Source: a virus
Direction: 5' to 3' (one strand)
DNA length: 62,081 nt
Virus record (IMG/VR): IMGVR_UViG_3300007504_000734
Location: 1-62,081 of that record
The position numbers and the translations under genes are program-made. Under the pieces are notes generated by a model. It was given only the letters and a program-made list of their open reading frames with translations, was not told where the DNA came from and did no database searches. Of the stretch, positions 5,711 to 51,062 are shown in pieces (within the stretch, counting starts at the first letter, position 1; each line of letters starts with the position of its first letter).

Positions 5711-7780
5711 TTAACCAGTGCGTTTTGTGATCATTTCAGTGATATTAGCAGGGCACGGTGCGTAGTGACTAAACTCCATACTAAACTGACCACGGCCGCT
5801 CGTCATACCACGCAAGTCGCCAATATAGCCAAACATTTCACCAATTGGTGCTTCTGCCCAAATGCGTACCTTTTGTCCACTAACTTCTTGATTGCTAATC
5901 ATGCCGCGGCGTCTGTTAATGTCGCCAATAACGTCACCAACTTTATCCTCTGGAGCAATTACGTCAAGTTTCATGACAGGCTCTAGTAATTGTGGTCCTG
6001 CTTTAGGCATGGTTTGTCTAAAGCCACCTCGAGCTGCTAATTCAAACGCAATAGCACTTGAGTCAACTGCGTGTGAAGAACCGTCTGTTAATGTCACTTT
6101 AAAGTCTAACAACGGATAACCTGCTACAATGCCGTTATTAGCAGACTCTCTAAAACCTTTTTCAACAGCAGGCCAAAACTCTCTTGGCACATTACCACCG
6201 ACAACTTTTGATTCAAACTCAAAGCCGCCGCCTGATGGCAATGGCTCTATAGTATATTCAATATCACCAAACTGGCCAGAACCACCTGATTGCTTTTTAT
6301 GAACAAATTTGTCTTCCACTGTTTGTGTAATAGTTTCTCTGTATGCTACTTGTGGTTTACCAATACTTACTTCAATGCCATGGGTTCTTTTAAGAATGTC
6401 GCACTTAATGTCTAAGTGTAGTTCGCCCATACCCTTAAGAATAGTTTGCCCACTTTCTTGATCTGTTTCAACATGGAAGGACGGATCTTCAGCGACCATT
6501 TTACCAATAGCAGTTCCTAACTTATCCATGTCACCTTGTGTCTTTGGTTCAACAGCAATACTAATAACCGGGGCAGGGAATACCATTGGCTCTAGTACGG
6601 CGGGTTTATTTTTATCACACAGTGTATGACCTGTTTGTACAGTTTTCATACCAAGCAATGCAATAATATCGCCTGCTTGTGCAGAGTCCTTTTCTTCTCT
6701 ATTGTCGGCATGCATTTCTACAATACGGCCAACACGTTCGGACTTGCCTGTGCTACTGTTATAAATTGTATCACCTTTGTTAAGTTTGCCAGAGTAAATG
6801 CGTGTAAATGTCAATGCACCATACTTGTCGTCCATAATCTTAAACGCAAGTGCTCTTAGTGGTCTGTCATCATCAACAATAGCATGTTCACCTGTTTCAT
6901 TGCCTTCTAAGTCTACTTCTGGCTGTGGATCAACCTCAGTAGGATTAGGCAAATAATCAACCACGGCACTCAATACATTTTGTACGCCTTTATTTTTAAA
7001 TGAACTACCACAGAATGTTGGGAAGAAATCACAATTAATTGTACCCTTGCGAATACACTTTTTAAGATCTTCTTCGCTAATGCTGTCAGGATCCTCCATC
7101 CACTGCATCATTACATCGTCGTCTTGCTCTACAACTTGCTCTACCATTAGATCATAATATTCTTTGGCCTTGTCTGCCAAGTCTGCAGGAATGTCGCTAA
7201 TAGTGTAAGAAGTAGGATCTGCTGAATTTGACCAGGCCCATGCTTTTTGCGTAAGAATGTCTACAATGCCTACAAAATCATCTTCAGCACCAATTGGAAT
7301 AGCCATAATAACTGGTACTGCGTTTAAGCGATCTTTAATTTGCTCTACTACACGATAGAAATCTGCACCAACTCTATCCATTTTGTTAACGTAAATAACA
7401 CGGGCAACTTCACTGTCATTAGCATAACGCCAGTTTGTTTCGGATTGTGGTTCTACGCCTCCTACCGCGCAAAAAACACCAACGCCACCGTCTAATACTT
7501 TCAATGAGCGGTATACTTCAATTGTAAAGTCAACGTGTCCTGGTGTGTCAATAATGTTAAACTGGTGGTCATCCCAAAAGCATGTTGTAGCGGCTGACTG
7601 AATAGTAATACCGCGTTCCTGCTCTTGCTCCATAAAATCTGTAGTAGCGGCGCCGTCATGTACTTCGCCTATCTTATGGATTTTACCTGTTAGTTTTAAA
7701 ATGCGCTCTGTTGTTGTAGTTTTACCTGCATCAACGTGAGCGAAAATTCCTATGTTTCTATACTTTTGTAGATCTGACAT
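5711..7780 (-). CDS. fusA: translation elongation factor G
   Basis: 689 aa, close to full bacterial length (about 690-705). EF-G is the GTPase that translocates tRNA and mRNA on the ribosome. All G-motifs are intact: P-loop AHVDAGKT (residues 14-21), RGIT switch I (56-59), DTPGH (78-82) with the catalytic His, and NKMD (132-135). Domains II-V follow to the end, including the [12 protein letters not shown] segment of domain IV. The N-terminus ([15 protein letters not shown]) reminds me of the second EF-G (EF-G2/FusB) of gammaproteobacteria more than the primary FusA; this needs a tree. It has both a sigma70 promoter (7826-7854) and a TATAAATA octamer (7808-7815), with ribosome site GGAGCAATAAGA. 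Confidence 0.95.
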
Positions 7781-7858: not shown

Positions 7859-9493
7859 TTAGAAACCCCACCAATCACGTACTCCGGGATTAAATGACCC
7901 GCTGGTTGTTCCTGTTATTTTCTCAACTTGCCCATCGCTGTTAGGCACGGGAGTAGAACTGAAATATTTATACTTTATCCATTCTTTACATTTATGACCT
8001 CCAACAAAAATTTCTTGTTCATTATAAGCATCTAATTCTACTTTATATCCCCAGATATAAGCAATATAGTTTAGCACGTCTACAGTAGATTCGTTTGCTA
8101 ATTCTCTACCGCTTTTACCTCTGTATAAATGTAACAATAATGTTCTTTTATCATCATGATCAAAGTCTCTTACTTGTATATCTGGAATGCGATAGTTATA
8201 GTCATATTGTCTTGCTAATTCTTTGCGTATGCTCTTGTAACCAGCGTTGTTATGGATTGCTTTTACTTGATAATGTGGATCTTGCTTGCGGTCGCCAAGT
8301 TGGAACAATCTAAAATCACGTATAACTTTTGGAGATAAAAACTGTAGTATAAAACTCTCGTCCCTATAATTAGCAACGATGTCTAATGTAATCTCTTTCC
8401 AATTACCGCCAGCAACATCAGGAAACCATTCTTTATCTTCTTTTGTTGGCTCATCGCACATACGTTTAATGTCTTGAAAAATAGCAAAACCTAATGCATA
8501 TGGATTTATGCCACCATAATATGGTTTATCAAATGTAAGTTGGTTTAAAACGTTTGTGTGTAGTTTTAAAAACTCTAGCATACTTGCGTCACAAATCAAA
8601 CCTTTTTCATGTAAACGATTCATTGTATAATAATGCACAAAGCAAGCATATCCTTCGTTCATCACTTTTGTTTGTCCTTGCGGATAAAAATATTGTGCTA
8701 TCTTACGCACAATACGACATAATTCGCGTTGCCAATCTGTTAAATTAGGCGCGTTTTTTTCAAGGAAATATATAATGTTTTCTTCTGGTTTATCCAAATA
8801 AACATATTTTCTGTCTGTTTTCTTCTTTTCTTCCTTTTTACGTTTAATTACTGTTGTGTCCCATAACTCATTAACATGTTTGCGTAAGTATTCTGCCCTT
8901 TCACCCGCTTTCTCTGCCTCTGCATACGAATTAAGTTTTACTGGACGCTTATATTTGTTAATACCGTAATTACGAATAGAGTGTAATGCATCTAAAAATA
9001 GTTCTACTTCGTCTAATCCATATTTTTCTTCACACTTCTTAACAAAGTTTTTAGCAAATACAAGATAATCAATAATTGCTTCTGCGTTTGTCCATGTTTT
9101 AAACAAGTAGTTATTTTTAAAGAAATGGTTGTGGCCAAACGCGGCGTGAGCAATAACTAATGCTTGCGTGGTCATTGTATTCTCTTCCATGAGATAGTTT
9201 ATGCATGGATTACTATTAATAACGAGTTCGTATGCTAAACTAGTTCTACCTTTTCTGTATTGATTTTCATAATGTGACCATGCCTTACCATTGCTCCAAT
9301 GGTTATATGATAAGGGCATACCAATACTTGCATATGCATCTAACATTTGCTCAAACGTTACAACTTCAAGTTGGTTCGTGTAAGTATCGCAACCAAGTTC
9401 ATTAACTGCAATATCTTCGCAAGCATCGTAGATGTTACTTACAAGTTCAAAACTCCAATCATCTTGTTGTGTGAATAATAGTTTAGTCATCAC
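7859..9493 (-). CDS. SpoVR family protein (YcgB-like)
   Basis: 544 aa. SpoVR/YcgB proteins are conserved partners of PrkA and YeaH in bacteria; in E. coli the corresponding genes respond to nitrogen starvation and stationary phase, but the biochemistry is unresolved. Family landmarks: the N-terminal WSNGKAWSHYENQY block, ELVINSNPCINYLMEEN, and the His-rich AHAAFGHNHFFKNN motif near residues 120-135. Length resembles family members (about 500). Its start overlaps the stop of the DUF444 gene by 11 bases; it is last in the three-gene operon. Confidence 0.9.
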   Translation of the reverse strand: MMTKLLFTQQDDWSFELVSNIYDACEDIAVNELGCDTYTNQLEVVTFEQMLDAYASIGMPLSYNHWSNGKAWSHYENQYRKGRTSLAYELVINSNPCINYLMEENTMTTQALVIAHAAFGHNHFFKNNYLFKTWTNAEAIIDYLVFAKNFVKKCEEKYGLDEVELFLDALHSIRNYGINKYKRPVKLNSYAEAEKAGERAEYLRKHVNELWDTTVIKRKKEEKKKTDRKYVYLDKPEENIIYFLEKNAPNLTDWQRELCRIVRKIAQYFYPQGQTKVMNEGYACFVHYYTMNRLHEKGLICDASMLEFLKLHTNVLNQLTFDKPYYGGINPYALGFAIFQDIKRMCDEPTKEDKEWFPDVAGGNWKEITLDIVANYRDESFILQFLSPKVIRDFRLFQLGDRKQDPHYQVKAIHNNAGYKSIRKELARQYDYNYRIPDIQVRDFDHDDKRTLLLHLYRGKSGRELANESTVDVLNYIAYIWGYKVELDAYNEQEIFVGGHKCKEWIKYKYFSSTPVPNSDGQVEKITGTTSGSFNPGVRDWWGF

Positions 9494-10829
9494 TTTTATC
9501 CTTTGGTGTAAAAAACCTTCTAAAAACTGGATATATATCTTTGCTTTGATGAACTCTACCTAATTGTATATTCGACCATTCTTGTGATAACATATAATAT
9601 CTCTTTTCCATACCAGCGCCTGCTACATATTTCAAATCAGCATGTGTCTGACCTGCATTAGGAACAATGCATAAGAATGTAAAATATTGGCAAATAGGTA
9701 AAAGATCGTTGCGTAAAACTTCTGCTACTTTATCATTGTCTGTTGTAAAATTATCACCATCACTTGCCTGGCTAATATAAATGTTCCAGTGTTCTAAATC
9801 ATATCGCTTCTTAATAATTTCATGTGTTAATTCTAATGCTGAACTTACTACTGTGCCGCCACTTTCTTTGCTATTAAAGAATTCATCTTCTGTACATTCC
9901 TTAGCAACAGTATGGTGGCGTATAAACACAATGTCTACCAAGTCATACTTCATATTTAAAAACATATGTAGTAAAATAAAAAAGCGTTTTGCTAAATTCT
10001 TTTCACGTTCTTGCATTGATATTGATACATCTAAAATACAAAACATTACAGCCGCATTTTTAGGCTTTGGTACTTTAGAGAAGTTGTTAAACTTTAGATC
10101 AATTGGATCAATAAACGAGATAGCATTGTATCTTGCTCGTATGCGTTTTATCTCTTCCTCAATCTCTTGCAAACGTAGCCATTCTTGTGTTCTATGATCT
10201 TTGCCTGGTGGCAATGTAGCAAAAAACTCAAGTATTTTATCACGCTCTTCTAGTAGTTCGCGTAATTTTCTTCCCTTAGGCTTTTTAAGAGCCAAACGTC
10301 TGCCAATACTGCGTATCATGCTCTGTTCTAAATTTAGATTGTTTGGTGAGCCTTCATTTACATAACCTGCTCTTTCAACACTAAACTCTTCAATACTTTT
10401 CTTTTGTTTCTCTATTAAATCAGGAAGTTCTAAGTCTTCAAATAATATATCTAAAAATTCATCTTTGTTTATAGAGAATACAAAATCGTCTTCGCCATAT
10501 GCATCATCTGAACCTTCAGATCCGCCGCCGCCTCCTTGGCCACCCTGGGGTGGTTTGCGTATTTTATCGCCAGGAACATATTCTTTATTGCCGGGTAAGA
10601 CATAATCTTTTTCACCTGATTTAGGATCGTATTGGAATTGTGGTTCTTTAATACTTTTAGCAGGAACTTTGACGCGGCTGCCAGACTTTAGATCCTTGAT
10701 AGATCTGTTTTTAATAGTTTCGTCTAAGCTTTCCTTAATATACTTCTTTGACCGCTCAATGAAGCGTTGTCTATTGGAAAGATTCTTTCCCTTAGGATTT
10801 GAACGCCTGTCAATAATATGCTTGGCCAT
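9483..10829 (-). CDS. yeaH: DUF444 / YeaH family protein (von Willebrand A-like)
   Basis: 448 aa. YeaH-type proteins have a C-terminal VWA-like domain and travel with PrkA. The metal-site motif DxSxS is visible as CILDVSISM at about residues 266-274, with the later Thr (SGGTVVSSALEL) and Asp (SQASDGDNF) positions of a MIDAS. The N-terminus is basic; a Gly-rich linker (PPQGGQGGGGGSEGSDD) separates it from a helical middle. Length is near that of E. coli YeaH. Nine bases separate it from prkA upstream. Probably a scaffold or substrate for the kinase (inference). Confidence 0.92.
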   Translation of the reverse strand: MAKHIIDRRSNPKGKNLSNRQRFIERSKKYIKESLDETIKNRSIKDLKSGSRVKVPAKSIKEPQFQYDPKSGEKDYVLPGNKEYVPGDKIRKPPQGGQGGGGGSEGSDDAYGEDDFVFSINKDEFLDILFEDLELPDLIEKQKKSIEEFSVERAGYVNEGSPNNLNLEQSMIRSIGRRLALKKPKGRKLRELLEERDKILEFFATLPPGKDHRTQEWLRLQEIEEEIKRIRARYNAISFIDPIDLKFNNFSKVPKPKNAAVMFCILDVSISMQEREKNLAKRFFILLHMFLNMKYDLVDIVFIRHHTVAKECTEDEFFNSKESGGTVVSSALELTHEIIKKRYDLEHWNIYISQASDGDNFTTDNDKVAEVLRNDLLPICQYFTFLCIVPNAGQTHADLKYVAGAGMEKRYYMLSQEWSNIQLGRVHQSKDIYPVFRRFFTPKDKSDD

Positions 10830-10838
10830 GGTAAACCC

Positions 10839-12779
10839 TTAACTTGACTTCTGGGTTCTCATGTACCATTCAACAAGTCTACGAACTTGCCTATCAGTAT
10901 AACCTTTCTCTTCCATACGAGCAACAAAGTCATTGTGCTTTTGTTGGTCATCTTTGTTTTGCTTATTACCAAAGGAAATAATAGGTAGTAGTTCTTCTGT
11001 GGACGCAAACATTTTCTTTTCAATAATCTCGCGTAGTTTTTCATAACTCGACCACTTTGGATTCTTACCTTTGTTTTTTGCTTTTGCTCTCAATACAAAG
11101 TTGACTACTTCGCTACGGAAGTCTTTTGGATTAGCGATACCGGCTGGTTTCTCAATCTTCTCTAACTCCTCGTTTAGTACTTCGCGGCTAAACAAGTTGC
11201 CTGTGTCAGGATCTTTAAAGTCAATCTCTTGAATCCAGTGATCAGCGTATTCAATATAACGATCAAACAAGTTTTGTCCATAATCACTATAACTTTCTAA
11301 ATATGCTTTTTGTATTTCATTACCAATAAAGTCAGCATACTTTGGAGCCAACCATTCTTTAATAAAGTTTGTGAGCGTTTTTTCATTTTCCTCACCAAAC
11401 TGATCGCGTCTAATTGCTTGCTCTAGTACAAACATCAAATGTACTGGATCAGCCGCAATCTCGTTTGTGTCAAAGTTAAACACTTGTGACAGTATCTTAA
11501 ACGCAAAACGTGTTGATGAGCCAGACATGCCTTCGTCTACTCCCGCAACGTCTTTATATTCTTGTAGTGACTTTGCTTGTGGATCAGTGTCTTTTAAATT
11601 CTTGCCGTTATACACTTGCATTTTGGAAAACAAATTACTGTTTTCATGCTCACGCAGTCTACTTAAAATACTATACTGCGATAACATTTCAAGTGTTTGC
11701 GGGGCACATGGATGCTGTGCTAGTCCACTTGAGTCTAGCATCTTTTCGTAAATACTAATCTCTTCATCAATACGTAAGCAGTAAGGAACCTTAACAACAT
11801 ACACACGATCTAGGAACGCTTCGTTGTTTTTGTTGTTCTTAAATGACTGCCATTCTGATTCGTTACTATGTGCTAAAATTGTTCCACTAAACGGAATAGC
11901 ACTAATACCTTCTGTACCCATATAGTTGCCTTCCTGCGTAGCAGTTAGCAATGGGTGTAATACTTTGATTGGTGCTTTAAACATTTCAACAAATTCCATA
12001 AGGCCTTGGTTGCCTTTACATAATGCACCACTAAATGCGTATGAGTCTGGATCGTGTTGTGAGAAGTACTCAAGTTGACGAATATCTGTCTTACCAACCA
12101 ATGAACTAATGTCTTGGTTGTTTTCGTCACCTGGCTCTGTTTTTACTACAGCAATCTGTTTTAGTTTACTTGGCTGTAATTTTACTACTGTAAATTTAGT
12201 AATGTCACCATCAAATTCATCCAAGCGTTTAATTGCCCATGGGCTTAGTAAGCCAGTTAGGTAACGCTTTGATATTTTATATTCTTTCTCAATTTGCTCA
12301 CCATATTTCTCAGGAGAGAACAGAGACAACGGACTTTCAAAAACAGGGCTAATTACATCGCCTGCTTTTAGTACATAAATTGGATGTATTTCCATTAATT
12401 CTTTTAAACGTTCAGCAAGACTCGACTTGCCGCCGCCCACTGGGCCCAACAAATATAATATTTGTTTACGTTCTTCTAAGCCTTGTGCGGCATGTTTAAA
12501 AAATCCAACAATTCTTTCTACGGTATCTTCTAGTCCGTAAAAGTCTTTAAATGCTGGATATACTCGTAATGTTCTGTTCAGGAAGATGCGTGACAACCGT
12601 GGATCTTCCGAAGTATCTATATGCTCTGGGTCCCCAATGGCAGCTAACATTCGTTCTGCTGATGTAGCATATGCGAGTGGGTCCTTCTTACATAGATTTA
12701 GATACTCTTCAAGTGTGAACTCTTGCTCTTTATATGATTGGTAATCTGCAGAGAACTCCTTTAATAGTTTGCTTGCCAT
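10839..12779 (-). CDS. prkA: PrkA-type AAA+ serine protein kinase
   Basis: 646 aa, matching the usual length (about 640). PrkA (YeaG in E. coli) has an N-terminal AAA+ domain and a C-terminal kinase-like domain and phosphorylates proteins on Ser. The Walker A motif GPVGGGKSS lies near residues 113-121. The conserved PrkA blocks SARLSRIF-like LSRIFLNRTLRVYPAF, DRVYVVKVPYCLR and GSSTRFAFKILS (residues about 400-430) are present. First gene of the PrkA-YeaH-SpoVR operon; ribosome site CAGGAGCAAAG. A candidate for reprogramming host stress or nitrogen physiology during infection (inference). Confidence 0.93.
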   Translation of the reverse strand: MASKLLKEFSADYQSYKEQEFTLEEYLNLCKKDPLAYATSAERMLAAIGDPEHIDTSEDPRLSRIFLNRTLRVYPAFKDFYGLEDTVERIVGFFKHAAQGLEERKQILYLLGPVGGGKSSLAERLKELMEIHPIYVLKAGDVISPVFESPLSLFSPEKYGEQIEKEYKISKRYLTGLLSPWAIKRLDEFDGDITKFTVVKLQPSKLKQIAVVKTEPGDENNQDISSLVGKTDIRQLEYFSQHDPDSYAFSGALCKGNQGLMEFVEMFKAPIKVLHPLLTATQEGNYMGTEGISAIPFSGTILAHSNESEWQSFKNNKNNEAFLDRVYVVKVPYCLRIDEEISIYEKMLDSSGLAQHPCAPQTLEMLSQYSILSRLREHENSNLFSKMQVYNGKNLKDTDPQAKSLQEYKDVAGVDEGMSGSSTRFAFKILSQVFNFDTNEIAADPVHLMFVLEQAIRRDQFGEENEKTLTNFIKEWLAPKYADFIGNEIQKAYLESYSDYGQNLFDRYIEYADHWIQEIDFKDPDTGNLFSREVLNEELEKIEKPAGIANPKDFRSEVVNFVLRAKAKNKGKNPKWSSYEKLREIIEKKMFASTEELLPIISFGNKQNKDDQQKHNDFVARMEEKGYTDRQVRRLVEWYMRTQKSS

Positions 12780-14344: not shown

Positions 14345-15664
14345 TTAGTAATAGATTTTATATATTTCTCTTACGTCATATTCAGGGTGATGTTTTTGTA
14401 GTATTTCTAGAGCGTTTCGAATTCTACTATAATCATTTTCTTTATTGAATGTAAAGTTTTTCAAAGATTCAATTAGATTTTTTATTTGTTCAATATCATC
14501 GCTGTAAAAACAACTACTTTTCTTCAGTGTGTGTTCAATTTTCTCTCTGCAATTTTGGACGACATCATAGGGAACTAATCGCAAGTTAAAATCACTGCTA
14601 TCTACCATTTGAACAAGCCCTGCTATACGCACTCTCTTATGCATAGGTATTTTTTTATTTTTTAGATCCATAAAAGAAAGTAGTTCATCTAAATATGGCA
14701 ACGTTAACGCTGTTATAACTATATTAAACGAAACTGGAGTATGATCGCATTCTAGGCTAATCTGTAAATATTGATCAATATTTTTTTCTAGTTTTGTCCA
14801 TTTTACAGGATATCTCTGTAATTCAATCGCCGGGCCTACACTATCAATACTTAATACTAACATAACAAGTTTAAAATGCTTGATGATTTCAATGAATCTA
14901 GGATGAATCATTGTCGTATTTGTAGTTATTACTAATTCTATATTTTTACTGTGATCGCATTCTATCAAATATTCTAAAAATTTTAAATTTTCTAATATTA
15001 TAGTGGGTTCGCCGCCACTTAAATACAATCGAGTAATATTGCTTATTCTTTTTTCTCCAATAATATTTTTTAATCCTATTTTTGAAGGCCAATTATATTT
15101 TTTAAGTTTTTTAGAAGTTCTACTCGCACCCGCGTATTCATTGTCAGGCCTGCCTGTTTCAGAAAGATCATATTTAAATTGGCTTAAATCATCAACGCCT
15201 AGTCTATTAAAAAATCTTCCATAGGTAATACTATAATCACTATTACAAATTTTACATGCCAAGTTACATGTATTTCCAGACTGTATTTGATAAAAATAAG
15301 GATAGCTATCGTCTAATATAAAATTATTTTTAACACTTTTATCAACAACGTCTTGTATGTGAGGATAGCTATCCTCCGCACCAAGCGCCGCCTGGCGAAC
15401 ACTCCACATGCCACGTTCTTCAGAGTCCCAGCAATTCTGACATTCAGGTGCCTTAACTCCATTATATAGATTTTCTCGAAGTTTAAGCATCCTTTTGGAA
15501 TTCCACGCATCATTTAAAGTATGTGTGTTTATGTTATAGTGATTTCCGTTCTCATCCAAGTGGGCATACTCTTTATCGTTACTCGAGGCACAACAAAATT
15601 TTATATCACCATTGGTTTCTATTTCTTGATGGGCCCAGGGATAAGTGCAAAGTGGTTTATTCAT
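14345..15664 (-). CDS. radical SAM protein with N-terminal twitch-like Cys domain
   Basis: About 439 aa from the ATG at 15664 (MNKPLCTYPW), which overlaps the upstream stop by 8 bases; a longer start at 15688 is less likely. The radical SAM cluster motif CX3CX2C is visible as GNTCNLACKICNS. An N-terminal Cys set (LCTYPW, KFCCAS, CQNCWDSE) looks like the auxiliary 'twitch' Fe-S domain. The GGEP-type motif appears as LYLSGGEPTI. Reaction unknown. Two related enzymes lie at 32793 and 48944. Confidence 0.85.
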   Translation of the reverse strand: MNKPLCTYPWAHQEIETNGDIKFCCASSNDKEYAHLDENGNHYNINTHTLNDAWNSKRMLKLRENLYNGVKAPECQNCWDSEERGMWSVRQAALGAEDSYPHIQDVVDKSVKNNFILDDSYPYFYQIQSGNTCNLACKICNSDYSITYGRFFNRLGVDDLSQFKYDLSETGRPDNEYAGASRTSKKLKKYNWPSKIGLKNIIGEKRISNITRLYLSGGEPTIILENLKFLEYLIECDHSKNIELVITTNTTMIHPRFIEIIKHFKLVMLVLSIDSVGPAIELQRYPVKWTKLEKNIDQYLQISLECDHTPVSFNIVITALTLPYLDELLSFMDLKNKKIPMHKRVRIAGLVQMVDSSDFNLRLVPYDVVQNCREKIEHTLKKSSCFYSDDIEQIKNLIESLKNFTFNKENDYSRIRNALEILQKHHPEYDVREIYKIYY

Positions 15665-16301
15665 TATCTTGTATTTTAGATTGGACAAATCTATCTAACC
15701 CTTCGTATGTGTCGTACAGCACATAACGCCACGAATCAAACTCTGCCGGATGTGGATATTCTTCTGGCTTTATAAAAATAAAAGTAATATTATAAAAATG
15801 TTTAAACAATAACTCAAACTGTTTTATCCATTTTTCTGGATTACGTGGTCCTTGCTTTTCGTTTCTATAATGTTCTGTATTTAGATATATGTTATTAGCA
15901 TACTTTTGGTTTTTTCCCTTGCCATAAAAGTCGTAACCCAACAACATAATAACATCTGCTTCTTCTTTTATAGCAGTATAAACAGCATACAATCCACTGC
16001 TCCAATTAATAGGTTGTTGGTATGTTTCTAAACCAAAATAAGGAAGATCGGGCAACACTCTTACTTTATCTTTTGCTAAGTAGTGCGCCCAATCCTTACG
16101 GGTGTAAAAGTTAGAGCGTAAGTGAACGCCATTACTGACTGCTTCTCTTGCCCTAAACTTATTACAGCATATCAAATTGTCAACGTGATTGTCTCGCCAA
16201 ATCGCGCCGCATCCGTATAACGGTCCTATGTCGCGCAACTTTTGTAAATCATAACTTTTGCGTGTCTCACCATTGCCAATACAATATGCTATTTTTTTCA
16301 T
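15657..16301 (-). CDS. MptE-like / DUF115-type protein, copy 1
   Basis: 214 aa. The start MKKIAYCIGNGETRK, then LYGCGAIWRD and MLLGYDFYGKG, match a layout shared with the protein at 27727-28311 (FVLGNGTSRQ, VYGCNALYRE, YILGFDFTGL). This GNG-x-SR / GC-N-A / G-D-F pattern recalls the Rossmann-like MptE/DUF115 family, members of which modify flagellin or glycans. I infer sugar-related transfer activity. Forms a two-gene unit with the radical SAM gene downstream. Confidence 0.6.
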   Translation of the reverse strand: MKKIAYCIGNGETRKSYDLQKLRDIGPLYGCGAIWRDNHVDNLICCNKFRAREAVSNGVHLRSNFYTRKDWAHYLAKDKVRVLPDLPYFGLETYQQPINWSSGLYAVYTAIKEEADVIMLLGYDFYGKGKNQKYANNIYLNTEHYRNEKQGPRNPEKWIKQFELLFKHFYNITFIFIKPEEYPHPAEFDSWRYVLYDTYEGLDRFVQSKIQDNE

Positions 16302-25388: not shown

Positions 25389-25417
25389 ATTATATATTAC
25401 ATTACGGTCATTGTCAA
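25389..25417 (-). promoter_or_regulatory. perfect-consensus sigma70 promoter
   Basis: Minus strand: TTGACA (25412-25417), exactly 17 bases, TATAAT (25389-25394). Upstream of the gene starting at 25351; overlaps the last codons of the SbmA-like gene. Confidence 0.88.
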
Positions 25418-26436
25418 GAAATAGCGTATTTGTTTAGATTGCGCTCGAATTCGCTCAAACGTTTATATATTGAACGCAATTCTGTAATTGTTGTCCAGTT
25501 ATGCAAGAATAATGCAAACCCACCATGTACTTTCTGGAACGCATTTGACACTTGCACTACTACACCTAATAATACAGCACCAGTAAACAAACTTGGACCT
25601 ACGATTAAGTAAGGCACAATAACCATTGCTTGATCATACATAATCATCCATGTGTCAAAATATCCATAGTGTAAGTACAAACGTTGATAGTTGAAACGTA
25701 TGCCTGTGAATAAACTTGCTAATGTTTCTGGTTGTGCATAGTTTACTTTGTCATCTTCACCAAACACTAAATCCTTTCTAAATGCGGCTTCGACACGTTG
25801 ATTGTTATATTCAAGTCCGGGCAGTTTAATACCTACAAACCATGAAATAACCAACCCGCCTATAGATACAAATAATGCTACCCATACAAGTGAGCCAGGA
25901 ATGTCGCTAAAGAATGGAATAGTAACTGAAGAACTTAACCCCCACAGCACTGGAATAAACGCAACGAGTGTCATTAACGCCCGCACAACTTGCAATCCCA
26001 AACTTTCTACAATTCTAGCAAACCGATTGCAGTCCTCTTGAATACGCTGTGATGCACCTTCAATTTCTTCTTCAACATTGCGCCAACGCGGAATGTAGTC
26101 AAAGGTCATTGCCTCTCGCCAACGGAGTCCGTATATGCGTGTAAACCACCCAGTGAGCACCGCTAACAGCACATATGGAAATGCTAATACAGCAAATGAG
26201 GGATCACCATCACTAAAATATTGTAAGCCTAGTAATTTTTCATAAAATAAAGAAATGCCTTCACTGGCATTATTTTTATATTCACCAGACTTTTGTAGTA
26301 AGTCATAAAATCCACCATACCATGTGTTTATCGCTACTGTTAATTGAACTTGTAACCATAACGATATAACTAATAGAGAGCCACCGCCATAAGCCCATAG
26401 TGCCCATTTCTTAGTTTTATAAAATGCTTTTATCAT
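25414..26436 (-). CDS. SbmA/BacA-like inner-membrane peptide transporter
   Basis: 340 aa. SbmA/BacA proteins form proton-coupled inner-membrane transporters that import peptides such as microcins and Pro-rich antimicrobials. Recognised from a run of family blocks: INTWYGGFYDLLQ, YGLRWREAMTFDYIPRW, EGASQRIQEDCNRFA near residues 125-140, and VRALMTLVAFIPVLWGLS. About six to seven membrane helices are visible. It is shorter than E. coli SbmA (about 406), lacking part of the C-terminus. It overlaps the next gene upstream by 4 bases. Function in a phage is unknown. Confidence 0.88.
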   Translation of the reverse strand: MIKAFYKTKKWALWAYGGGSLLVISLWLQVQLTVAINTWYGGFYDLLQKSGEYKNNASEGISLFYEKLLGLQYFSDGDPSFAVLAFPYVLLAVLTGWFTRIYGLRWREAMTFDYIPRWRNVEEEIEGASQRIQEDCNRFARIVESLGLQVVRALMTLVAFIPVLWGLSSSVTIPFFSDIPGSLVWVALFVSIGGLVISWFVGIKLPGLEYNNQRVEAAFRKDLVFGEDDKVNYAQPETLASLFTGIRFNYQRLYLHYGYFDTWMIMYDQAMVIVPYLIVGPSLFTGAVLLGVVVQVSNAFQKVHGGFALFLHNWTTITELRSIYKRLSEFERNLNKYAIS

Positions 26437-29583: not shown

Positions 29584-29590
29584 ATTTAGT

Positions 29591-29622
29591 GGGGGCGACT
29601 TTGTTAAGAAGGTGTCGCCCCC
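29591..29622 (-). terminator. strong hairpin at the 3' end of the tmRNA precursor
   Basis: GGGGGCGAC (29614-29622 complement) pairs with GTCGCCCCC (29591-29599) over 9 bases with a 14-base loop. No U-tract follows, so it may be a processing or stabilising structure rather than a classical terminator. Confidence 0.6.
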
Positions 29623-29645
29623 GAAACCCCCTACGCGACCGCTAA

Positions 29646-29684
29646 TTAGGCGGCTAATGCGTAATCGTAATAATCGTCATTTGC
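29646..29684 (-). other. tmRNA tag reading frame
   Basis: Codons GCA-AAT-GAC ... GCC-GCC-TAA give the peptide ANDDYYDYALAA. The six bases before the resume codon (ATAATT) resemble the E. coli AUAGUC. The ALAA end is the typical ClpXP degron end. Confidence 0.9.
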
Positions 29685-29852
29685 AATTATATAGTTTGCT
29701 GTTTTTTAATATGGAACTGCTCCCATATGTCGTCCATTTATCCTCTTCACCCTGTCGAAACTGTGTCACCCCCGTAAAAAATTTGGTGGAGGTGCCGGGC
29801 ACTGCCCCCGGGTCCAGAATGCGTACTTTCAACTTCATACGACAATCAAAAT

Positions 29853-29875: not shown

Positions 29876-29899
29876 AAAGGAATACCTGAGCATTCCTTT
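29876..29899 (-). terminator. hairpin after the bL33 gene
   Basis: AAAGGAAT / ATTCCTTT (8 bp, 8-base loop) begins at the bL33 stop codon and is followed by ATTCTT on the minus strand; a plausible weak terminator separating bL33 from tmRNA. Confidence 0.6.
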
Positions 29900-30071
29900 A
29901 TTTAATTTTCTTTTCTTCAAACCAGACGTGTTTTCTTAAAACTGGATCGTATTTCTTTTTACGTAGTTTTTCAGGATTGCGTCCGTTTTTAGTAGTAGTA
30001 TAATAGTAGCCAGTGCCTTCTGTTGACACTAGTTTAACTATTCTAATTGATTTACTAGTAGGATAAGACAT
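29898..30071 (-). CDS. rpmG: ribosomal protein bL33
   Basis: 57 aa. The sequence [19 protein letters not shown], then [24 protein letters not shown] and the KEKKIK-like end is the full bL33 pattern (IRLVSTAGTGFYYVT...KYDPVARKHV). This is the Cys-free (C-minus) form. The protein binds 23S rRNA near the ribosomal E site. Its ATG overlaps the previous stop (TAATG). It lies directly between ClpS-side genes and tmRNA, so translation and rescue functions are grouped. Confidence 0.93.
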
Positions 30072-30397
30072 TAGTATTGATTTTTTGTTGTGTTGTCGGC
30101 AAACGCATGATTGTCAATAACATGTTCTTTTGCTTTTTCATTTGTCATTTCATCAGATGTTTCCGGAATAAAAGGAACATCAAGATTTGTGTAAGTGTTA
30201 TACCAACGTGATGATGGGCCCCATGTTGCGGGCCCGCAATCGAAATATGGTGTTTCAGTGTACCTATGTGTTTCTTTGAGTATTTGTTTTGAATTTGATT
30301 CTTGCAGATCTTTACAAAATGCGTAAAAAGTTTCTGCTTTTTCAACATCGCCTTCTGCAAGTTTGAGACACTCTAATTTTAAAGTTGAGTCATCCAT
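30071..30397 (-). CDS. hypothetical protein, 108 aa
   Basis: ATG at 30397 ([17 protein letters not shown]) preferred over an upstream TTG. Helical N-terminus, aromatic middle ([15 protein letters not shown]). From memory, small proteins with a similar start occur in marine myoviruses without assigned function. Ends overlapping the bL33 ATG. Confidence 0.65.
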
Positions 30398-30411
30398 AAT
30401 CAAATCCTATA

Positions 30412-30579
30412 TTAGTCTTGCCAAATTCTCCATGCACCGTAAATAATAGCGGCCCATGCAATCCAAGTAACTAGTGGTGAAAATAATAGTGCAAGAACAC
30501 CAACACCTACTAGTACTGTGCCATCCCAAGTTGATCTTTCTGACCATTTTGCTTTGGCCCAATCAATTAAATTAAACAT
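30412..30579 (-). CDS. small membrane protein, 55 aa
   Basis: Starts MFNLIDWAKAKWSERSTWDG and continues with a hydrophobic helix (TVLVGVGVLALLFSPLV) and a second one (TWIAWAAIIYGAWRIW). Ribosome site AAAGGAGCTTATT is strong. Two-helix hairpin topology; a holin-like or scaffold role is possible but unproven. Confidence 0.75.
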   Translation of the reverse strand: MFNLIDWAKAKWSERSTWDGTVLVGVGVLALLFSPLVTWIAWAAIIYGAWRIWQD

Positions 30580-30602: not shown

Positions 30603-30902
30603 TTATTTATCCGCTTCTACTTTAACTTGTAGCGGATAATTATTATTTCGTGCCAAAAGTGTCACTTCAATACCGTGTTGTTCAGCAATTTCATATGGCA
30701 AAATAGCAACAATAGCAGAACCTTCTGCATCTACTTTATATGTTAGTTCTTGTGCTTCTTCTAATGTGTGGCTAAACACAGTCATAAGAACATTAACAAC
30801 AAAGTCCATTGGTGTTACATCATCATTGATGAATATAACTTTATACAATGATGGCTCTTTTAAATCTAATTGCTTTTTAATCTTGGTTGCAGTATCAGAC
30901 AT
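30603..30902 (-). CDS. clpS: ClpS protease adaptor
   Basis: 99 aa. ClpS hands N-degron substrates to ClpAP. The core VIFINDDVTPMDFVV (residues 22-36) carries the substrate-pocket Asp pair D27/D28 and TPM, and the rest matches the family (LLARNNNYPLQVKVEAD at the end). The normally invariant His of the VHxEG motif (His66 in E. coli) that contacts the N-terminal amine is replaced by Asp58 (VDAEGS). Specificity may therefore be changed or lost. It overlaps the upstream membrane protein gene (TAATG). Confidence 0.9.
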   Translation of the reverse strand: MSDTATKIKKQLDLKEPSLYKVIFINDDVTPMDFVVNVLMTVFSHTLEEAQELTYKVDAEGSAIVAILPYEIAEQHGIEVTLLARNNNYPLQVKVEADK

Positions 30903-37492: not shown

Positions 37493-38326
37493 TTAATTAT
37501 TATACATTTCCATAGCACGAATAAAACGTGTCATACCAATGCCACCGCCTACTCTTGGAAAGAAGTCCATTGCTAAAAAGTCTTCCAACTCTTTTTCAAC
37601 TCTTTCTCTACCAAACGTATCAAATAGTATATTAGCATAACCGCCGTCACTAATAGTATGGAACATATGTTTCATTTGTTCTTTATCTGTAGCACGTTCT
37701 GCTGATCCAATTGTTTCTTGTCCAGCAATAATAACATCAATCTTTGCCGCAGTTTCGCCATCGTCGTTTTGTTTCATGTTCCAAAATGGACTTGTGTAGT
37801 TTGGAAAGTTTTTAATCATTGCTACACGGCCATTAAAGTTTTGGCACATTTTTTCTTCATGCTCGTGTTCTAATTCTTTAACGCCGTAAATATCACACCA
37901 TTCTAAATAATCTTTAGCAACAATGTTTTCGCCATCGGACCATGTTAAGTAGTCCATAAGTTCGCGTTCCATCTTCTCTAAATCTAAAATAGTTCCTGGA
38001 AACTCAAACTCAAACATTGGAAATATTAGTTCATGTCTACCAGCTACCGGATTTGGCTCTTGCCTATAGGAGGTGGAAATACAAAAAAACCCCGGAACGT
38101 CGGGGCGTGTTAGTAATTCATGTTCGAGCCACATTTGGCCCGTTTGTGGCAGGGGCCATAGTTGCCCTGCGTAATTATAGGTCGCTATTGTTGTTGGATC
38201 TTCGCATGCCGCTAGTATGCTTAATCTATTTTGTGTGTGTACTTCTAAGAATCCTTTAGCCATAAAAAAAGACCTTAATAGGTCTGCGGCTTGTGTAAAG
38301 TGTTGTGGATTGATAAGTTGTGTCAT
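37493..38326 (-). CDS. class II aminoacyl-tRNA-synthetase-like catalytic domain
   Basis: 277 aa from the ATG at 38326, chosen for the GGAGAAAACA ribosome site; 38338 is an alternative. Motif 2 is STSYRQEPNP...HELIFPMFEFE, motif 3 is GGGIGMTRFIRAME. This is the class IIb (Asp/Asn/Lys) core, without the N-terminal anticodon-binding domain. Free-standing cores of this class include EpmA, which modifies EF-P, and AsnA, asparagine synthetase. The exact activity cannot be read from sequence. It could modify a translation protein or tRNA (inference). Confidence 0.8.
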   Translation of the reverse strand: MTQLINPQHFTQAADLLRSFFMAKGFLEVHTQNRLSILAACEDPTTIATYNYAGQLWPLPQTGQMWLEHELLTRPDVPGFFCISTSYRQEPNPVAGRHELIFPMFEFEFPGTILDLEKMERELMDYLTWSDGENIVAKDYLEWCDIYGVKELEHEHEEKMCQNFNGRVAMIKNFPNYTSPFWNMKQNDDGETAAKIDVIIAGQETIGSAERATDKEQMKHMFHTISDGGYANILFDTFGRERVEKELEDFLAMDFFPRVGGGIGMTRFIRAMEMYNN

Positions 38327-38374
38327 TGTTTTCTCCATTCAAAATTTTTTTAGGCCTGTTGCCTAAACTGTTTC

Positions 38375-48943: not shown

Positions 48944-50383
48944 TTAGGCATTATAATCACAGTTGCTACAAGCAGAGGCACACATATTTAAATTACCACA
49001 ATCACCGTAGTCGGCATTTAGAGTCTGTAGAAACCTATTCTCTGTTGTATTTGGAGTCCATGTATTTGCTATTGTGTCAAAAAATCCTGTTTTGAATACT
49101 TCTTCTATACCACCATATTTTAGAGCATTGTTAGCATCGTTTTTAAAACCAAAAGTTAATAACAATTCTCTCAGATCGTAAGTGTACTCATTTGCAATTC
49201 TTGTGTGATTATGACCCATCATACAACACGGATAAACAAAGCCGTCTGCTGTAATAAAAACTTTAGATTCTGTTACAGCCATGCAATTTATTTTTCTATT
49301 ACTGTGCTTTTTACTCGATGGTAAACCTCTCAGAACTTTATTGACATCAACGTTGTCATATTCTTCAATATTGGTCACTTTCCATAGCGAATCTTTAACC
49401 CAAATAAATTTTTCTGCTTCTTCTTCCCATGATTTATTTTGACTAACATATTTTTCTTGTGCGATTTTTAAAAATGATGTATATTCTTTTATATTAATTT
49501 GATCAATTTGGTTATCATCTTCACTAACAAACATATGTGCCTTATATTTTTTTGCAATATTGTATACAGGACCCTTTCCGTGTTTTTGGATAGCCTTTTT
49601 AAAAAGATCAGACAATGTTTCATTTACTTCATAAAGCATTGCATCTAAATATGGATATGATATTTTTATATCTGTTTGTTCTTCATTATTTTTGATGTTT
49701 TCTGTTTGATCAGTTAAGTATCTGTCATAATCTTCTAAGCCTTCCGCACCTTGAAGTTGACCAACATATTCTCCTTTACTGGTATATACTGGAGTATCTT
49801 CTGGCCTATCCGTATTGATAATTTCTATTTTTGCAAAATTATATTCTTTGGCAAGTTCTTTAACATCTTCAAATTGATGTTGATTATGTTTAAAAAGTAT
49901 AAACTGTAAAATAGCATTTCCACCTGCGTCTATAAATGCTTTTGCGTTTTCTAAAACTTTTTTAAGATTTGTGTTTTGTCTATAATAAGAATGTACTTCT
50001 TGCGTTGTGCCATCTACTGCAAACCATATTTTCATATTTTTATACTTTGCAAAATTTGCCCAATAATCAGTACTATGCATTCCGCCGTTGGTATTAATTT
50101 CAATTATAATATCATTATTACAGGAATAAAGATAATCTACCATTTGAGGTAGATTAGGATTTACTTGGGCGTCTCCAACATTTCCACAAAATATAACACG
50201 TTCTAAGTTGGATACCAGTTTTGATGTTAATAAAAATTTAAACTCATCTAGCGACATGTGTTTTTGATAGGTGCCTGCTAGTTCTCCATATCCATAATAT
50301 GCTCTACTACAGGCAGGGCATGCCGCGTTACACTTTTCGGTTATTTCAATTTGTACACTAGTAATATCTTTATATCTATACAT
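48944..50383 (-). CDS. radical SAM protein with SPASM-like C-terminal cysteines
   Basis: About 479 aa from the ATG at 50383 (MYRYKDITSVQIEITEKC), which overlaps the upstream stop by 8 bases. The cluster motif is EKCNAACPACSRAY (CX3CX2C). The C-terminus has GFVYPCCMMGH and then five Cys in CGNLNMCASACSNCDY, an auxiliary-cluster (SPASM-like) layout, common in peptide-modifying or glycopeptide-modifying enzymes. Different from the two twitch-type enzymes at 14345 and 32793. Substrate unknown. Confidence 0.87.
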   Translation of the reverse strand: MYRYKDITSVQIEITEKCNAACPACSRAYYGYGELAGTYQKHMSLDEFKFLLTSKLVSNLERVIFCGNVGDAQVNPNLPQMVDYLYSCNNDIIIEINTNGGMHSTDYWANFAKYKNMKIWFAVDGTTQEVHSYYRQNTNLKKVLENAKAFIDAGGNAILQFILFKHNQHQFEDVKELAKEYNFAKIEIINTDRPEDTPVYTSKGEYVGQLQGAEGLEDYDRYLTDQTENIKNNEEQTDIKISYPYLDAMLYEVNETLSDLFKKAIQKHGKGPVYNIAKKYKAHMFVSEDDNQIDQINIKEYTSFLKIAQEKYVSQNKSWEEEAEKFIWVKDSLWKVTNIEEYDNVDVNKVLRGLPSSKKHSNRKINCMAVTESKVFITADGFVYPCCMMGHNHTRIANEYTYDLRELLLTFGFKNDANNALKYGGIEEVFKTGFFDTIANTWTPNTTENRFLQTLNADYGDCGNLNMCASACSNCDYNA

Positions 50384-51062
50384 CCAAATTATAATATTGA
50401 GCAACGCGTCTGTTCCATTCGTTAGCTGCGTTCTCAAACTCCTTGCCTTCGATAACAAACTCTTGATAATTTAAGTCTTTAGAGCACATTAACACAACCC
50501 CGGTTTTAATGTCTGTACCAAACATTTCATTGTGTGCTTGTGCGTATGCGGCTAACTGGCAAAAATAGTTGCTAATCCATTCTTTTTTCTTAGGTTTATT
50601 AGTTTGCTTAAAGTCAAGTATTGCTAAGTTACCTTTCCAAAGTCCTACACAATCTGTTGTGCCTGCGTATAATCCTTCATAGTATAGCGAGACTTCTGTA
50701 CCATATATTTCGCTAACTTTCCTAAGTCCTTCGGCAATAATAACATTTGACATGTTGTATGCTTTTTGGTGTATGACATTACTGCCAACTTTGCGTTCAT
50801 GGCTCTCAATATATAATTCTAAATTTTTATGCATTAGTGTGCCGACATTTGCGGCTTCTGTACTAATTTGCTGTGCTTGCGTTTCGCCAACACGCTTTTT
50901 CCAGTTTGCTAATGCTTCTCTTTCTTGTTGGGATTTAGTCGCGTCTAATATAGTTGTAACGCTAGGAACTGCTGATCCATCAGGTAATTGATACTTGCGT
51001 TTTCTATCTATAGTCGTAACACGTTTTAATTCGTTGTAATCGTATTTTTCCAGTAATATCAT
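50376..51062 (-). CDS. PD-(D/E)XK nuclease (RecB/Cas4-like)
   Basis: 228 aa. Signature order: GTLMHKNLELYIE (helix with His), YYEGLYAGTTDCVGLWKGN (Asp), LAILDFKQTNKPKKKEW (DFK, the D-x-K core) and YFCQLAAYAQAHNE (QxxxY). Such phage nucleases act in recombination or DNA repair. Preceded by a sigma70-consensus promoter, so likely early. Confidence 0.88.
   Translation of the reverse strand: MILLEKYDYNELKRVTTIDRKRKYQLPDGSAVPSVTTILDATKSQQEREALANWKKRVGETQAQQISTEAANVGTLMHKNLELYIESHERKVGSNVIHQKAYNMSNVIIAEGLRKVSEIYGTEVSLYYEGLYAGTTDCVGLWKGNLAILDFKQTNKPKKKEWISNYFCQLAAYAQAHNEMFGTDIKTGVVLMCSKDLNYQEFVIEGKEFENAANEWNRRVAQYYNLDV

Follow-up and report, generated by a model that had tools for sequence, protein, structure and literature searches.

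The DNA analysed here, referred to as the window, is the whole of a 62,081-base virus record, and the same locus is present in a record of 201,690 bp. A T4-like Gp23 capsid gene occurs in the 201-kb, 235-kb and 158-kb related records and was not found in the window fragment itself, whose gene content includes a phage lysozyme, phage families and a ribonucleotide reductase; the tmRNA of the window belongs to a T4-like large aquatic phage. A megablast comparison of positions 25001-49000 of the window with 50,697 phage records gave zero matches. The features of the locus are the following.

29588..29773, minus strand: tmRNA coding piece, with G1 at 29773 (3' end from the RF01849 match only)
29591..29622, minus strand: 9-bp hairpin GGGGGCGAC...GTCGCCCCC at the 3' end of the coding piece (sequence and fold)
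29646..29684, minus strand: tag reading frame ANDDYYDYALAA and TAA (ARAGORN, sequence and fold)
29774..29783, minus strand: intervening sequence (IVS) of 10 nt, AATTTTTTAC, a possible scar of a spacer gene (sequence)
29784..29844, minus strand: acceptor piece with T arm, acceptor 3' strand and encoded CCA (5' end from the covariance-model match only)
29898..30071, minus strand: bL33 (rpmG), 57 aa (PF00471, E 2.3e-15; TIGR01023, 64.1 bits, cut-off 23.95; limits from L121 6832-7005)
30071..30403, minus strand: 110-aa ORF between clpS and bL33 (similar-sized ORF at the same place in L124 and L126)
30412..30579, minus strand: 55-aa ORF with a hydrophobic segment, between clpS and bL33 (L121 6324-6491; similar ORF in L124 and L126)
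30603..30902, minus strand: ClpS, the ClpAP protease adaptor, 99 aa (PF02617, E 3.2e-27, 94.6 bits, cut-off 23)

An intact permuted tmRNA of the alphaproteobacterial type was identified at 29844-29588 on the minus strand using covariance models and ARAGORN, which was the check proposed in the first-pass annotation for its reading of the locus as a permuted two-piece tmRNA. RF04321 (tmRNA_permuted) matched 29844-29646 with 121.8 bits (E 2.8e-23; gathering score 47), RF01849 (alpha_tmRNA) matched 29882-29588 with 83.7 bits (E 3.3e-21; gathering score 50), and the single gene call made by ARAGORN over the whole 62 kb was this permuted tmRNA. As to subtype, RF01849 was the only permuted subtype model listed, the tool dropping overlapping clan members (RF01850, RF01851). 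All the elements named in the annotation are present, the minus-strand order being acceptor piece, 10-nt spacer and coding piece. The acceptor piece ends CACCTCC-ACCA, with the CCA encoded and ending at 29784, and the coding piece begins GGGGGTGACACAGTTTCGAC; the acceptor stem CACCUCC/GGGGGUG forms 7/7 pairs and includes the G3-U70 alanine signal, as had been claimed. The tag, ANDDYYDYALAA at 29684-29646, opens at the resume codon GCA and has the hydrophobic LAA end and the usual ALAA ending; its frame is complete and its stop codon lies unpaired in the loop of a predicted hairpin, in keeping with the intact tag that had been described. Position 4 of the tag is D in the window and N in 110/110 bacterial tags, the latter taken from loci with the window's T arm among the matches listed, a departure that counts against a working RNA. 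The model score, the acceptor with its CCA lying upstream, the tag frame and the alphaproteobacterial subtype all place the RNA among the tmRNAs, and the feature is confirmed as a phage-borne permuted two-piece tmRNA with alanine identity and an intact tag.

The clpS gene lies four genes upstream of the tmRNA, and bL33 is also upstream; neither these two genes nor the spacer genes of relatives figure in the first-pass annotation. The window ClpS scores below every NCBIfam ClpS equivalog cut-off. Sequence comparison establishes that the order clpS, small ORF, ORF of about 110 aa, bL33 and tmRNA is common to three lineages (L121, L124 and L126), with an additional 238-aa ORF before the tmRNA in L124 and the adjacency of bL33 and tmRNA kept in L121 and L126. 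Among related records, which may be fragments, RF04321 matched 11/14, bL33 was found in 5/12 and a ClpP-family gene also in 5/12, the last in neither the window nor its 201-kb relative. The PF00574 family also takes in capsid-maturation proteases, and the ClpP-family matches are therefore not claimed as a working protease. SmpB (PF01668) was found in none of the 12 phage records, all possible fragments, and the window RNA would thus depend on host SmpB; this bears on whether the phage system is self-contained and not on the membership of its RNA among the tmRNAs.

E. coli ClpS diverts ClpAP from SsrA-tagged proteins, and a phage ClpS could likewise shift ClpAP off such proteins, which would suit an RNA acting as a decoy, that is, one titrating host SmpB or replacing the host tmRNA so as to block tagging for proteolysis rather than perform it. 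The tmRNA of phage DS6A, which consists of a tRNA-like domain only, is discussed as an inhibitor in the available part of PMC4131195. Such a decoy would not need the complete tag frame, ALAA end and resume region that the window retains, and we consider this explanation improbable. Very probably, the window carries a working phage-borne permuted tmRNA, the spacer of which doubles in relatives as a small protein gene that the window lineage lacks.

The loss of acceptor pairing in close relatives, named in the first-pass annotation as evidence that would count against it, is not seen. In a search seeded on the coding piece and run without any pairing criterion, the acceptor stem was paired 7/7 in 24/24 testable loci; the DNA pattern used gave 26 loci, near-identical records included, of which two were cut by the locus end, the nearest upstream CCACCA was taken, and the 24 loci represent three stem sequences (12, 9 and 3 loci). 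Covariation was demonstrated in an alignment of 29 phage sequences, in which 12 pairs gave 348/348 standard cells, 7/12 pairs had changed on both sides and U70-G3 was kept in 29/29, with a covariation score of 0.485 against 0.108 for shuffles and at most 0.088 for slid controls. The alignment comprises 29 of 36 distinct sequences, two chance tRNA-like matches (L293; L390-L392) and five duplicates in the paired columns having been dropped; the finder demands at least 6 acceptor and at least 5 T-stem pairs, so that the complete pairing in these rows is partly by construction. The tags are kept in relatives as open frames with conservative changes (ANDDYYDYAMAA in L124, ANDDYYEYALAA in L126), and the coding part is 89% identical between the window and L126. 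The T-arm loop type is TTCGA in L124 and L126 versus GGCAG in the window (L124 7743-8018; window 29815-29784), a difference which, with the remaining tmRNA about 90% identical, suggests recombination between tmRNAs.

It could also be supposed that the phage picked up a host tmRNA which has since lost its function and is now decaying or simply carried along, and this would fit the lack of SmpB in the 12 phage records; moreover, the tmRNAs of named phages are known from sequence, and the window phage from metagenome records only. Against decay, however, the stems covary with all standard pairs kept across the 29 phage sequences, the tag frames of L124 and L126 are still open, their changes being conservative, and the tmRNA stays beside bL33 in L121 and L126. 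Decay is accordingly judged quite improbable, and a working tmRNA remains the preferred reading.

The length of the spacer differs strongly among close relatives, from 10 nt in the window and 9 nt in L124 to 192 nt in L126, where it holds a 47-aa frame with a Shine-Dalgarno-like sequence and a stop codon 1 nt before G1. The 10-nt IVS of the window contains no protein gene, whereas spacer-borne protein genes of two unrelated families were found in relatives: the WSICADI family (about 38-47 aa) inside the IVS in 61/80 protein-seeded loci by finder count, and a 77-aa family in 26/34 loci. A profile built from the L126 frame and one relative gave 231 WSICADI relatives in virus contigs, of which 80 were kept. 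In four further loci (L325, L329, L346 and L351) the gene was placed in the spacer by eye, 13/80 loci have it as a free-standing ordinary gene away from any tmRNA, and the exceptions are L383, with a coding piece downstream only, and L326, with the gene outside the spacer. The spacers holding a WSICADI gene measure 157-294 nt, and the distance from its stop to G1 is 1 nt in 59/61 loci (31/33 distinct spacers); when G1 was simply set as 1 nt after the stop, with no pairing criterion, the position gave 7/7 pairs with an upstream acceptor strand in 62/80 loci. Computed on the final 29 codons in 29 distinct sequences, pS was 0.611 and pN 0.122, a ratio of 0.20 in frame versus 1.8 and 2.1 in the other frames. 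An AGGA[GA] motif starts at most 12 nt from the CCA in 31/33 distinct WSICADI spacers, and at least 4 nt of an AGGAGG-like match precede a main-frame start in 21/33. An acidic leading ORF with a DDEP-like motif was considered as a second gene in these spacers; no claim is made for it, since the ORF overlaps the start of the main gene and its conserved motif shares bases with MKNPLV.

The 77-aa family occupies spacers of 260-388 nt, with the stop 12 nt before G1 in 26/26 and a pN/pS of 0.143 over 12 distinct sequences. Its exceptions are L409, L410 and L412, in which a tmRNA is present and the ORF lies outside the spacer, and L418-L422, which gave no finder match. Other open frames in phage spacers are 35 aa (L147, L148 and others) or 37 aa (L282 and others) long. 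Searches of named phages with the WSICADI and 77-aa proteins by tblastn gave no match, where the low-complexity filter may hide hydrophobic peptides, and a comparison of 10 spacer peptides with PHROGs gave weak matches for two (E 0.049 and 0.02) and none for eight. Judged by their other genes, the carriers of spacer genes are phages: L478 encodes a baseplate tail tube cap, L479 and L480 a phage exonuclease family, and L481 a DnaB-like helicase and a UvsX-like recombinase, with Gp23 in the record that contains L481 (G022); the nearest proteins to a 695-aa protein of L479 are those of Melnitz and HTVC008M (37-40% identity).

Not every spacer carries a gene: in a control seeded on the T arm and acceptor, an ATG frame of at least 25 codons was present in 16 of the 50 distinct viral spacers that reach 90 nt, compared with 4.7 in shuffles. 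This low share, together with the several spacers that have no ORF, could suggest that the spacer ORFs of the relatives are chance open frames in unconstrained DNA. Chance frames would not, however, be expected to show in-frame pN/pS ratios of 0.20 and 0.143 with pS near 0.6 or a fixed distance from stop to G1, and in the 13 free-standing WSICADI loci the same protein is an ordinary gene. Chance is thus very improbable; conservation is evident in the protein comparisons, the status of the spacer genes as conserved coding sequence is strongly supported by them, and in some relatives the tmRNA spacer is a small conserved gene for a predicted membrane protein.

In the window, the 10-nt spacer is identical in the 11 population loci tested, and AATTTTTTAC is similar to the end of the L126 gene, ...TCTTTTTTTGAC. 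A search with profile A3 for a spacer gene relocated elsewhere matched 3/15 records, which did not include the window (G000), its 201-kb relative (G001) or G003. It is favoured that the window lineage would have lost its spacer gene with a 10-nt scar left behind, although the T-rich ends could have other causes; loss, as against the lineage never having had the gene, is what we infer from this resemblance.

The spacers of bacterial permuted tmRNAs are short and without a gene, in contrast to the spacers of 157-388 nt with conserved genes found in the phage relatives. Bacterial spacers measured 2-83 nt in 116/117 loci found with the T-arm pattern, the longest ATG frame being 13 codons among the matches listed. 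Bacterial ATG frames of 37 and 97 codons at two loci were rejected as spurious second finder matches; three bacterial loci gave more than one finder match, and the shortest match per locus gives the maximum of 13. Alphaproteobacterial spacers were also read in 20 stretches mostly chosen for long matches and in the 30 best-scoring loci, and the three longest among the matches listed (92, 115 and 165 nt) were without an ATG frame. RF04321 matched at least 359 of 385 alphaproteobacterial genomes, in which the WSICADI profile gave one weak match (E 0.0058).

The first-pass annotation had predicted an alphaproteobacterial host or donor, and only the second half of this holds up: an alphaproteobacterial donor is likely, whereas the host is not fixed by the RNA type, since Methylophilales phage Melnitz infects a non-alphaproteobacterium and yet has an alpha-type tmRNA according to the available text of PMC9004378. 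The alphaproteobacterial tmRNAs (RF01849, RF04321) share with the window the order of the pieces, the T-arm type, the acceptor stem, G3-U70 and the ALAA tag end. The T-arm sequence of the window occurs in at least 117 bacterial stretches, mostly of Acetobacteraceae and other Rhodospirillales, with some Kordiimonadales and Rhizobiales and one labelled Nitrosovibrio among the matches listed; reading a host from these matches was considered and given up, as they span 32 nt. No match to the tag pattern ANDDYYDYA was found in 84,980 species genomes. That the locus is host DNA in a viral bin is scarcely credible, for although EF-G, SpoVR, PrkA and bL33 are usual in bacteria, the same locus lies in the 201,690-bp record with Gp23, the 235-kb and 158-kb relatives have Gp23 too, and the window contains a lysozyme and phage families.

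The novelty that had been attached to a permuted tmRNA in a phage did not withstand comparison with the literature and databases. In the available part of PMC9004378, 53 two-piece forms are counted among 133 unique tmRNA structures from 402 phages, 50 of the 53 from marine or aquatic samples, and Melnitz is reported to carry one; with such RNAs already in print, the window copy is a further example of a published type. At least 119 viral stretches in IMG/VR match the T-arm pattern of the window, and ARAGORN found 74 tmRNAs in 120 tested loci, three of which belong to the population of the window itself. Among named phages, ARAGORN reported a permuted tmRNA in HTVC008M, RcRudolph and Mesorhizobium Cp1R7A-A1, and likewise in Melnitz; it gave none for Phrappuccino, a blastn match that was not counted, or for MT836065 (L308), though the sequence of the latter looks permuted. 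According to the parts of PMC11915505 available, 79 unique bacteriophage tmRNAs are listed there and RF04321 was built there, one permuted tmRNA has a tRNA-Ala gene in its spacer and a second has a repeat element there, and some group I introns of tmRNA contain homing endonuclease genes. Genes for tmRNA, SmpB and translation (EF-G, ribosomal proteins) are reported from huge phages in PMC7162821, and bL33 from aquatic virus contigs in PMC6375957, each as far as its accessible text goes.

The closest known systems are Melnitz and HTVC008M, which like the window have an alpha-type permuted tmRNA and are T4-like aquatic phages, and which differ from it in that bL33 and clpS are not beside the tmRNA in the stretches examined. 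A glutamine riboswitch is reported for Melnitz in the accessible text of PMC9004378, whereas a scan of the window at Rfam gathering scores lists none. The Melnitz spacer is 142 nt long, with a GGAG sequence and a 54-aa ATG frame that runs 42 nt past G1 into the coding piece, and that of HTVC008M is 49 nt, with a frame of at most 9 codons; with this overrun in the one and no frame of note in the other, neither cultured phage displays the clean arrangement. In the available text of PMC9004378 the word 'intervening' is absent. The cargo described in the accessible parts of PMC11915505 (tRNA, repeat, intron-borne homing genes) includes no spacer-borne protein gene matching the processing sites, and in the open-licence literature, so far as its text was available, no mention was found of a protein gene in a permuted tmRNA spacer, the nearest being the tRNA-Ala gene (PMC11915505). 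We have not found the spacer-gene arrangement described, and it appears to be new. The row of clpS, bL33 and permuted tmRNA is likewise unmentioned in the available parts of PMC7162821, where Clp is absent, and of PMC6375957.

The processing, charging, expression and function that we infer for these RNAs would proceed from a single precursor, probably transcribed together with the upstream clpS and bL33. Host tRNA-processing enzymes would cut after the CCA and before G1, dropping the 10-nt spacer, and the two resulting RNAs would stay joined through the acceptor stem. Charging would be performed by host AlaRS, recognizing G3-U70, and host SmpB would bring the RNA to stalled ribosomes, so that ANDDYYDYALAA would be added during infection, rescuing the ribosomes and tagging the stalled products; the upstream ClpS could bias which protease receives them, a point that touches on the choice of protease suggested for the tag in the first-pass annotation. 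In relatives, the freed spacer RNA would serve as a mini-mRNA: a ribosome-binding site would lie close to its 5' end, and in the WSICADI family 1 nt would separate the stop codon from the 3' end. Before cutting, a ribosome terminating on the precursor would cover G1; after cutting, it would stand at the 3' end of the spacer RNA, where tmRNA may act; a coupling between synthesis of the peptide and maturation of the tmRNA is therefore possible. More tentatively, and with the odds somewhat against it as a whole, it may be proposed that the spacer is a genuine gene in aquatic T4-like phages, that its mRNA arises through tmRNA processing, that peptide synthesis and RNA maturation compete or are coupled, and that the peptide reports rescue capacity and perhaps the timing of lysis, the window having lost the gene and kept the 10-nt scar.

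Taken alone, the window copy is one more permuted tmRNA in a phage, set in a notable neighbourhood that includes bL33 and the ClpS adaptor. Of greater interest are the relatives, which have a conserved protein gene packed exactly into the discarded part of a tmRNA gene. Expression of the spacer would mean that tRNA processing yields three products from each transcript (acceptor RNA, mini-mRNA and coding RNA) and that a phage protein is tied to the ribosome-rescue RNA of the cell. For annotation, gene callers and tmRNA finders overlook such spacer genes. At L126 7005-7400, ARAGORN misreads the long-spacer permuted tmRNA and gives two wrong tags, whereas RF04321 finds the tmRNA; in Rhodobacter phage RcRudolph (L304 1453-1788), the annotation places a 'hypothetical protein' across the 5' part of a permuted tmRNA, whose tag is ANDNVRMDAQALAA. 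In Melnitz (L486 5985-6437), the locus tags skip 87 and 88 after that of the tmRNA (86).

Elsewhere in the window, several further genes were observed, all on the minus strand. A full-length phage EF-G lies at 5711-7780 (TIGR00484, 952.7 bits over 659.4), followed at 7859-12779 by SpoVR, a YhbH/YeaH-like protein and a PrkA kinase in a row; a PrkA homologue in three huge-phage records is 60-63% identical to that of the window. At 37493-38338 a 281-aa class II tRNA-synthetase-like protein (PF00152) scores far under the AsnS, AspS and AsnA cut-offs and may be a paralogue with another role. An SbmA/BacA-like peptide transporter is encoded at 25414-26436 (PF05992, E 3.7e-122), and two radical SAM proteins at 14345-15688 and 48944-50458, one of them of the twitch-domain subfamily NF033640 (246.4 bits over 170).
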